From Deltaproteobacteria bacterium (GTDB lineage Bacteria; Myxococcota; UBA727; VGSZ01), in contig VGSZ01000011.1 in assembly GCA_016874845.1 (NCBI GenBank), forward strand, positions 1-46,575: a stretch of 46,575 nucleotides of DNA, read 5' to 3'. A program made the position numbers and the translations under genes. Under the pieces are notes generated by a model. It saw only the letters and a program-made list of their open reading frames with translations. It was not told the origin of the DNA and did not search any database. This document shows positions 44,085 through 46,334 of the stretch, one piece after another; within the stretch, counting starts at the first letter, position 1, and each line of letters starts with the position of its first letter.

Positions 44085-44843
44085 TCACGGGCGGCGAAAG
44101 CCGACCACCGCTCCCCGGCGCTGAAGGTCGGTCAGGTCGGCGCGCGCGCGGCGCCGGTCAAACACCGCTTCGCTGCCAGCGGCCTCGGCGGCCAGCCGGT
44201 CGAGCGCCGCGCCGACGCTGACGCCCTCGCCCGCCGCGACGAGGATGCGCGCCACGGCCGGCGAGACGATCACGACGGCGAAGTCCTCGGCCCGCTGAAA
44301 GCAGCACAGCAAAGCCGGCGATGACAAAGGCGACGGCCACGCGGTGGTGGACGCCGTCACCCGGTGCACCGGGTGGAAGTAGACGCACAGCCGCGTCGAC
44401 GGGTCCACGACCACGATCCCGGCCTCGTCGACGTCGGGGATGAGGCCCGCCGAGGGCGGCTCCTGCCGCGCCGTCGGGGACAGCGTGACGTCGATCTCGA
44501 GCGCCTCGAAGTGGCAGAGCTCGGCGAAGCTGGCGTCGGGCAGCGCGTCGGCTGGCAGCGTGGCGAGCCACGCGGTGAACTCGCCGGCCACTGCGTGCAG
44601 CAGCCTGGTCGTCGGCGCGCGCTCGTCGAGGAAGCGGGCGATCAACCGGCTGAAGACGTCCTCGCCGGCGAGCCGCCGCGCGTGGGGACAGGCGCGCCGC
44701 AGGACGTCGCCGAGGGTGTTGCGGACGAGGTCGCGATAGACGAGCTGTCGCGACCGCGGCACGACAGCGTCGTCGAAGAAGGCTGGCTCGCGCGACAGCA
44801 GCAGTGAGCGCCAGCCGCGGGCGACATCGTCGACGTGGCTCAT
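44085..44843 (-). CDS. HvfC/BufC-type partner protein of the second MNIO enzyme (DUF2063)
   Basis: The 252-residue protein starts at ATG 44841-44843, overlapping the MNIO stop by 4 bases. The N-terminal part (PRSRQLVYRDLVRNTLGDVLRRACPHARRLAGEDVFSRLIARFL) is the conserved YR.LV...L...L...P.....G...F...I..F core of DUF2063, often annotated as putative DNA-binding but now known as the precursor-binding partner of BufB-type enzymes. FAELCHFEALEIDVTLS is also typical. It should recognise the substrate of the MNIO enzyme. Cytoplasmic; no signal peptide. Confidence 0.88.
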   Translation of the reverse strand: MSHVDDVARGWRSLLLSREPAFFDDAVVPRSRQLVYRDLVRNTLGDVLRRACPHARRLAGEDVFSRLIARFLDERAPTTRLLHAVAGEFTAWLATLPADALPDASFAELCHFEALEIDVTLSPTARQEPPSAGLIPDVDEAGIVVVDPSTRLCVYFHPVHRVTASTTAWPSPLSSPALLCCFQRAEDFAVVIVSPAVARILVAAGEGVSVGAALDRLAAEAAGSEAVFDRRRARADLTDLQRRGAVVGFRRP

Positions 44844-45802
44844 GTCCCCCCCGCGTCGCGCGCCCCGACGGCCTCGGCGCCGAGAGGCTCGACCGCGCCC
44901 GGTGTCGGGCCGCGGGACTGCGCGACGATCCGCTGCAGCCGCCGCAGCTCGGCCTCGAGCACCGGAAGCGGCGGGATCTGGTGGTCACGCTCGAGCAGAA
45001 TTGGCGGGAGCGCGAGCCCTGCGTTGCGGATCCGCGCCAGGGTGCGCGCGAGCAGGTCGTAGACCGGGCCGGCGACGGCCTCGCCGTGGGTGTCGAGCAG
45101 CAGCGTCGGGGAGCCGTCGTCGGCACGCTGCTGCACGAGGTGGCCGGCGACGTGGATCTGCACGATGCGCTCGAGCGGCAGGCGTGCGACGTAGTCGTCG
45201 CTGTCGAAGCCGAAGTTCACCGCGTTGACGTAGACGTTGTTGACGTCGAGGAGCAGCAGGCAGTCGGCGGCCTCGACCACGCGCCGCACGAAGCCGGGTT
45301 CATCGAGCGCTGCGACACCGGCCGGCGTAGGCGCGCGCAGATACGCCGAGATGTTCTCGACGGCCACCGGCAGCCCGAGGCGCTCGCGCAGCAGCCGCAC
45401 GCGCGCCGCGACGCGCGCGACGGCTTCTTCGGTGTGCGGCAAGGGCAACAGGTCGTGCACCTCAGCGCTGGCGACGTGGGTGAAGCAAAGGTGGTCAGAG
45501 TACCAGCGCGCGCCATGGCGCCGCAGGAAGGCGCCGAGCGCATCGATCAGGTCTTCGTCGACAGGGGCCGCGCCGGCGAGGTCGCCGCACAATCCGTGGC
45601 TGACGACGGGCCAGCGCTCGGTGGCCGCGGCCAGGCGTCGCCCGCGGGCCCCACCGACGCGGAGATGGTTCTCGGGCGCCACCTCGACGAAGCTGGCCGC
45701 GGTCGTCTCGGCGGCCAGCAGCGCCTCGGCGAGCCCGGCCCGGAAGCCCAGACCGACGGCTCCCGCCAGCGGCCCCACGATGTCACTCTGTATCAGGGCC
45801 AT
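44840..45802 (-). CDS. DUF692/MNIO-family iron enzyme, locus 2 (BufB-like)
   Basis: The 320-residue protein is a textbook DUF692 barrel: GLGFRAGLAE, FVEVAPENH, PVVSHGL, YSDHLCF, VAVENISAYL, LLLDVNNVYVNAVNFGFD, QIHVAGH, LLDTHGEAV and LLERDHQIPPL, which together carry the His/Asp/Glu/Asn iron ligands. BufB-type members convert Cys in exported bufferin precursors to modified, metal-binding forms. ATG 45800-45802 has GGAG 8 bases upstream. Coupled to the HvfC-type gene; the I9-like exported protein precedes it by 43 bp. All ligands look intact, unlike locus 1 where some positions differ. Confidence 0.95.
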   Translation of the reverse strand: MALIQSDIVGPLAGAVGLGFRAGLAEALLAAETTAASFVEVAPENHLRVGGARGRRLAAATERWPVVSHGLCGDLAGAAPVDEDLIDALGAFLRRHGARWYSDHLCFTHVASAEVHDLLPLPHTEEAVARVAARVRLLRERLGLPVAVENISAYLRAPTPAGVAALDEPGFVRRVVEAADCLLLLDVNNVYVNAVNFGFDSDDYVARLPLERIVQIHVAGHLVQQRADDGSPTLLLDTHGEAVAGPVYDLLARTLARIRNAGLALPPILLERDHQIPPLPVLEAELRRLQRIVAQSRGPTPGAVEPLGAEAVGARDAGGT

Positions 45803-45845
45803 GAAGAGGCTCCGCTCGACGGTGAGGCGCGCTCACGCCTCCGAT

Positions 45846-46334
45846 TCACTGCAGCGGGACGTCGGGCACGACGGCGGCGATGCCCGGCAGCGCCCGCACC
45901 GCGGACACCTGCTCGGGCGGCAGTTCGACGGTGAGCTGCCCGGACATCCACCAACGCTCGACAACGCGGGCGTTGACGCCGGCGAGCGCGGCCTCGACGT
46001 CGGGGCGCGTCAGCGCGGCGCGCTTCTGCTCGACGTAGCCGGCGACCGCCGCGGGGTCTTCCTTCAGGAGCTTACGGTAGTCGCCCAGGTCGGGCGTCGC
46101 GGCGGCGAGCGTGACGACGAAGCGCTGTCGTCCACCGCTGCGGGCGGCGACAGGGGCCCGCAAATCACCCAGCGGATCGTCGGCGCACGCGCCGGCGGCT
46201 CCAAGCGGCGCGAGACCAAGCGCCACGCCGAGCGCACAAGCAGCGGTCAACAACCAGCCGCGCGCACGCAGCGACCGGCCCCGACCCGACGGCGCTGCGG
46301 AAGAACAGGCGGATCGCGTGGGCGCACAGTGCAT
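45846..46334 (-). CDS. Exported inhibitor-I9/prodomain-like protein upstream of MNIO locus 2
   Basis: I start at ATG 46332-46334 (162 residues), which places a signal peptide near the N-terminus (SLRARGWLLTAACALGVALG, ending near GAAGAC); an ATG 33 codons upstream only adds unlikely sequence. The mature part begins ADDPLGDLRAP and ends with LTVELPPEQVSAVRALPGIA and VVPDVPLQ, the closing strand-helix-strand of subtilisin propeptides and I9 inhibitors (VS.E.V..L...P.V..V.PD). No S8 protease domain follows: the frame stops there. Only one Cys, at the likely cleavage site, so it is not a Cys-rich bufferin; a weak lipoprotein site (AGAC) is possible. 43 bp before the MNIO gene on the same strand. 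Confidence 0.7.
   Translation of the reverse strand: MHCAPTRSACSSAAPSGRGRSLRARGWLLTAACALGVALGLAPLGAAGACADDPLGDLRAPVAARSGGRQRFVVTLAAATPDLGDYRKLLKEDPAAVAGYVEQKRAALTRPDVEAALAGVNARVVERWWMSGQLTVELPPEQVSAVRALPGIAAVVPDVPLQ

Follow-up and report, generated by a model that had tools for sequence, protein, structure and literature searches.

The closest described counterparts of the locus analysed here are the HvfABC, or oxazolin (Buf_EGKCG), systems, in which an HvfB-type MNIO enzyme is followed by a DUF2063/HvfC partner and HvfA is an EGxCG lipoprotein. The signal peptide of HvfA serves as the leader required by HvfBC, which forms 5-thiooxazoles (PMC13419390). MNIO products can also be lipidated, and one of those known is an oxazolin (PMC12636315). 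The bufferin (BufABC) operons show the same order of exported first gene, MNIO and DUF2063 partner. A survey of MNIO enzymes took precursors from the genes preceding the MNIO; the small ORFs reported in that position, with a signal peptide and 1-18 Cys, number in the hundreds (PMC12452194). Because such ORFs were collected there, an entry like the I9-like protein described below could already be listed in that survey; the small part of the literature that was covered made no mention of the I9-like protein or of a trans-encoded HvfA.

We analysed a window of 46,575 nucleotides, which is a complete contig (G000:C11) of a Deltaproteobacteria genome, referred to as G000. Three genes in this window encode an I9-like exported protein, an MNIO enzyme and an HvfC-type partner (Table). 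The coordinates and minus strand of these ORFs, and the 4 bases (ATGA) shared by the MNIO and HvfC genes, were as the initial annotation had described. A gap of 43 nt separates the I9-like gene from the MNIO gene, and the I9-like gene is probably co-transcribed with the MNIO-HvfC pair. Since the window is a complete contig, only ~240 bases are known upstream of the I9-like gene. A divergent outer-membrane-protein gene begins within these bases; by eye, it matches the one flanking the operon in a sister species, G002.

Table. Features of the window and of related loci.
Feature	Location	Strand	Details
I9-like exported protein, probable lipoprotein	45846-46334	minus	ORF, 162 aa
HvfB-type MNIO enzyme	44840-45802	minus	ORF, 320 aa; PF05114
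HvfC-type partner: DUF2063 + RRE-type region	44085-44843	minus	ORF, 252 aa
Divergent outer-membrane-protein gene, approximate start, cut by contig end	46540-46575	plus	AWPAMRRKSRSRSGWMRLLP...; by eye
HvfA-type lipoprotein	G000:C186:3940-4158		one EGSCG motif, MKKSTLLATFAAATLLNAAC...KAPEGSCGGAPKN; profile E=2.7e-6
HvfA-type lipoproteins of G002	C11, C24		no adjoining MNIO in stretches read
HvfA-type lipoproteins of G001	C1013, C1109		no adjoining MNIO in stretches read
M61-like HELSH lipoprotein peptidase	L121 6683-8023		

The MNIO enzyme had been called canonical, and this description held: it matched PF05114 with E=4.8e-82, had 3BWW as its nearest solved structure (5e-53) and retained 27 of 27 positions near-invariant among 31 relatives, including every His, Asp, Glu and Asn. 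The HvfB model outscored the BufB model on this enzyme (270 vs 234 bits), with the score lying under the NCBIfam HvfB equivalog cut-off of 360 bits. The partner was likewise HvfC-type as proposed, matching DUF2063 (E=5.8e-13) and the HvfC model NF050145 (E=1.4e-24; 87 bits, under the curated cut-off of 142). An earlier comparison with BufA-BufB-BufC operons was apt in gene order, but the HvfA/oxazolin operons fit better than the DUF2282 bufferins; the window differs from the latter in lacking a DUF2282/Cys-rich precursor as well as in its higher HvfB score. It differs from the oxazolin operons in that the operon starts with an I9-like lipoprotein and that the HvfA-type gene is unlinked, with a single motif in G000.

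No EGxCG-type motif ([ED]G[KSDTEQ]CG) was present in any frame of the window, and no HvfA gene lay directly upstream of the MNIO gene. Such a pattern would be seen if the trio were a decaying remnant, with HvfBC left without a substrate of its own and the I9-like gene an unrelated passenger. We regard this as very improbable: the second species keeps the operon though the two trio MNIOs are just 64-66% identical, and an MNIO with every near-invariant residue intact led us to reject decay of the enzyme. With the I9-MNIO-HvfC operon surviving the split of species whose enzymes are this divergent, the I9-like gene may be genuinely connected to the HvfBC system.

In a phylogenetic tree, the trio MNIOs of the window and G002 were sisters, nested in a clade (support 100/99) in which an EGxCG-type lipoprotein is encoded immediately upstream of every other member; the MNIO of G005 was closest to the pair (support 99/95). 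Under a fixed motif rule with an opposite-strand control, 66 of 77 other related loci had repeated Cys motifs in an ORF upstream; the opposite-strand count was 3 of 78. L036, which this tally took in, is spurious. Several of the 11 loci missed by the rule show a visible HvfA-like gene. Because the clade members and the 66 loci keep a Cys-motif gene upstream, the simplest account is that absence of HvfA from the operon is a derived loss in the window's genus.

HvfA-type lipoprotein genes were instead found in trans, in G000 itself and in the related genomes G001 and G002. The G000 gene lies on a contig, C186, with no MNIO among its called genes, and its product is 69% identical to G002 C24 and 79% identical to G001 C1109 over aligned positions. 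Searches of G000 with a repeated-motif DNA pattern and with the NCBIfam KCGExKCG model found no precursor, and the C186 precursor fell under the threshold of the NCBIfam HvfA models. The precursors of G002 were found by the DNA pattern and missed by the KCGExKCG model. As the G000 copy carries one motif, C186 was detected only by a profile built solely from the four G001/G002 trans precursors. The best match of this profile outside the genus was the MNIO-adjacent HvfA gene of G007 (2.3e-10), and several of the next matches were also MNIO-adjacent HvfA genes (G126, G004, G005, G144, G155 and G147; places compared by eye). These matches are good evidence for placing the trans genes in the HvfA family.

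Leader sequences were compared in a small test with 18 training leaders and 11 background lipoproteins. Four of the five trans HvfA-type leaders outscored all 11 background lipoproteins, and one failed. The four I9-like leaders scored within the background range or lower, that of the window having a background-like score, not clearly lower. A leader-only profile returned its controls, G005 and G007, as the top two matches and gave no convincing new match in G000.

The trio MNIO is the sole HvfB-type MNIO found in G002 and would thus be the natural maturase there. G000 contains a second candidate, a BufB-like MNIO on contig C216 that has its own DUF2063 partner and scores higher with the BufB model. 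In G001, which has HvfA genes in trans, the trio MNIO was not found, only a BufB-like MNIO (C717) homologous to that of C216, so that this type of enzyme could be the maturase instead. With this rival enzyme in G000, and with G001 having only that type, maturation of the C186 protein by the trio MNIO-HvfC pair is likely rather than firm.

Other MNIO loci were also observed. At the C216 locus (L122 3149-5878), a 288-aa lipoprotein precedes the BufB-like MNIO and its partner; it has a MopE copper-binding motif, an EF hand and a cytochrome c match and is a candidate large MNIO substrate. The same arrangement is present at C717 (L204). A further MNIO of G000 (C336; L123 2373-3880) has no obvious precursor, and the gene directly ahead of it is presumably ElbB/DJ-1-like. 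The window itself contains a second, distant MNIO (1027-1956, minus; PF05114 5.5e-25), overlapped by the gene for a 255-aa protein without a Pfam match (263-1030, minus), which is a possible type-2 partner. The pair (263-1956) has relatives in G001, G002 and G003.

The I9-like protein was sub-threshold against Pfam PF05922 (E=0.36), yet a four-sequence profile of its homologues matched the Tk-subtilisin propeptide (5e-4). Subtilisin propeptides were also the best PDB folds for an AF2 model of 113 residues (pLDDT 75, alignment of two sequences), with probability 1.00 and a modest E of ~3e-3. Together, the profile and fold matches uphold the "I9-like" label. The protein had been described as having one Cys; the full ORF contains four (3, 10, 33 and 50), of which only C50 would be left after export. 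C50 is an invariant putative lipobox Cys at the signal peptide end, common to four I9-like homologues, and is followed three residues later by an invariant Asp. The lipobox is weak in all four, but the invariant Cys and Asp suggest that the I9-like proteins are probably lipoproteins. The mature body past the putative lipidation Cys contains no Cys, and a VVERWWMS motif is conserved among the homologues. POIA1 is a stand-alone I9/propeptide-like inhibitor. A malarial SUB1 propeptide-like protein likewise has a single I9-type domain without a fused protease (PMC6993865). The window protein differs from these in being bacterial, a probable lipoprotein and marked by the VVERWWM motif, and its inhibitory activity is putative. 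At a related locus (L038 4156-5313), a Cys-rich protein, seemingly with an I9-type stretch, is encoded a few hundred bases upstream of HvfA.

A search of 195 genomes from the phylum gave clear members of the I9-like family in only four, all of one order; a fifth genome, G081, gave a weak match (3.8e-5). In G002 (JAHFED010000010.1), the I9-like gene stands directly ahead of the MNIO in the same trio, and both trios are flanked by a sigma factor, an MscS-like channel and the divergent outer-membrane-protein gene. The shared trio and flanks indicate that the arrangement is not due to chance. In G003, the I9-like gene stands alone in a genome without HvfB-type MNIO and without HvfA. The G005 copy is part of a tight M61-peptidase/cupin/I9 cluster distant from any MNIO, and an HvfA-MNIO-HvfC operon is on a different contig. 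Conservation of the trio is therefore partial: its adjacency is kept in two species of one genus, but the gene is unlinked in the other two genomes. Linkage in two of four genomes is not the pattern expected of an obligate substrate.

The initial annotation had proposed that the I9-like protein is either a new kind of MNIO substrate or unrelated, with the precursor elsewhere. As a substrate, the I9-like lipoprotein would itself be modified by the MNIO-HvfC pair outside a Cys pair, for example at Asn, Asp or the C-terminus. Its place as first gene of the operon in the window and directly ahead of the MNIO in G002, and its export, as for HvfA, are consistent with this. So are the known cases of MNIO products that are lipoproteins and of MNIO chemistry outside Cys pairs (PMC12636315 and PMC10635010). 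The two MNIO-linked copies also have a Q in common both at the C-terminus and following WWMS-x; unlinked copies have E and A there. However, the main conserved features occur in unlinked copies too, one of them in a genome lacking an HvfB-type MNIO; there is no mature Cys past the putative lipidation Cys, the leader is unlike that of HvfA, the protein is modelled as a folded globular domain, and HvfA genes are available in trans. We therefore consider modification of the I9-like protein very unlikely. We give slightly less credence to the corresponding proposal that an HvfBC-type MNIO oxidises a non-Cys residue of an I9-like lipoprotein that is folded and Cys-free, which would make this lipoprotein a new kind of protein (not peptide) substrate.

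A precursor encoded elsewhere fits best, given the unlinked I9-like copies, the lone lipobox Cys, the non-HvfA signal peptide, the nesting of the enzyme and the HvfA-type lipoproteins without an adjoining MNIO in G000 (C186) and G002 (C11, C24). From these sequence comparisons, it is reasonably probable that the trio comprises an oxazolin-type HvfBC pair that has lost HvfA from the front of its operon, with the C186 protein as likely substrate in trans and the I9-like gene in the vacated slot. Points that weigh against this reading are the single motif of C186 and its failure to reach the HvfA models, the rival BufB-like enzyme, the survival of the trio in two divergent species and the small size of the leader comparison.

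An M61-like HELSH lipoprotein peptidase gene adjoined an HvfB-type MNIO in 63 of 82 places in Myxococcota (58 upstream, 5 downstream); many of these are close relatives within one family and so are not independent. This gene also adjoins the I9-like gene in two genomes, in G002 as the gene directly ahead of I9-MNIO-HvfC and in G005 as part of the cluster. The M61-like lipoprotein may thus be an accessory of HvfABC systems, with the I9-like protein belonging with it. More specifically, the I9-like lipoprotein could be a dedicated HvfABC accessory, an inhibitor or folding helper of an M61-like peptidase whose role would be to process or protect the lipoprotein once modified. This role is conceivable but doubtful: most of the 63 places fall in one family, no M61 gene adjoins the I9-like gene in the window or G003, the I9 cluster and HvfA operon of G005 are on separate contigs, and the proteases for which I9 domains are known are subtilases rather than M61. 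It is compatible with an HvfBC pair whose precursor is in trans, and is a refinement of that explanation.

If the HvfBC pair acts on a trans-encoded HvfA, the signal-peptide leader of HvfA would be recognised and bound by HvfC, and the EGSCG Cys would be oxidised by HvfB, the product being a copper-binding 5-thiooxazole in characterised relatives. The modified HvfA product would then be exported and lipidated. The I9-like lipoprotein, having taken the slot vacated by HvfA as the operon's first gene, would act outside the cytoplasm, most likely as a propeptide-like protease inhibitor or chaperone. A possible target is the M61-like peptidase encoded alongside many HvfABC operons of myxococci.

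Genome mining assigns MNIO substrates mainly by the gene in front of the enzyme (PMC12452194). With the HvfA precursor probably in trans, this rule would apparently name the wrong protein in this lineage. The M61-like lipoprotein peptidase is a candidate for an unrecognised HvfABC component in Myxococcota.
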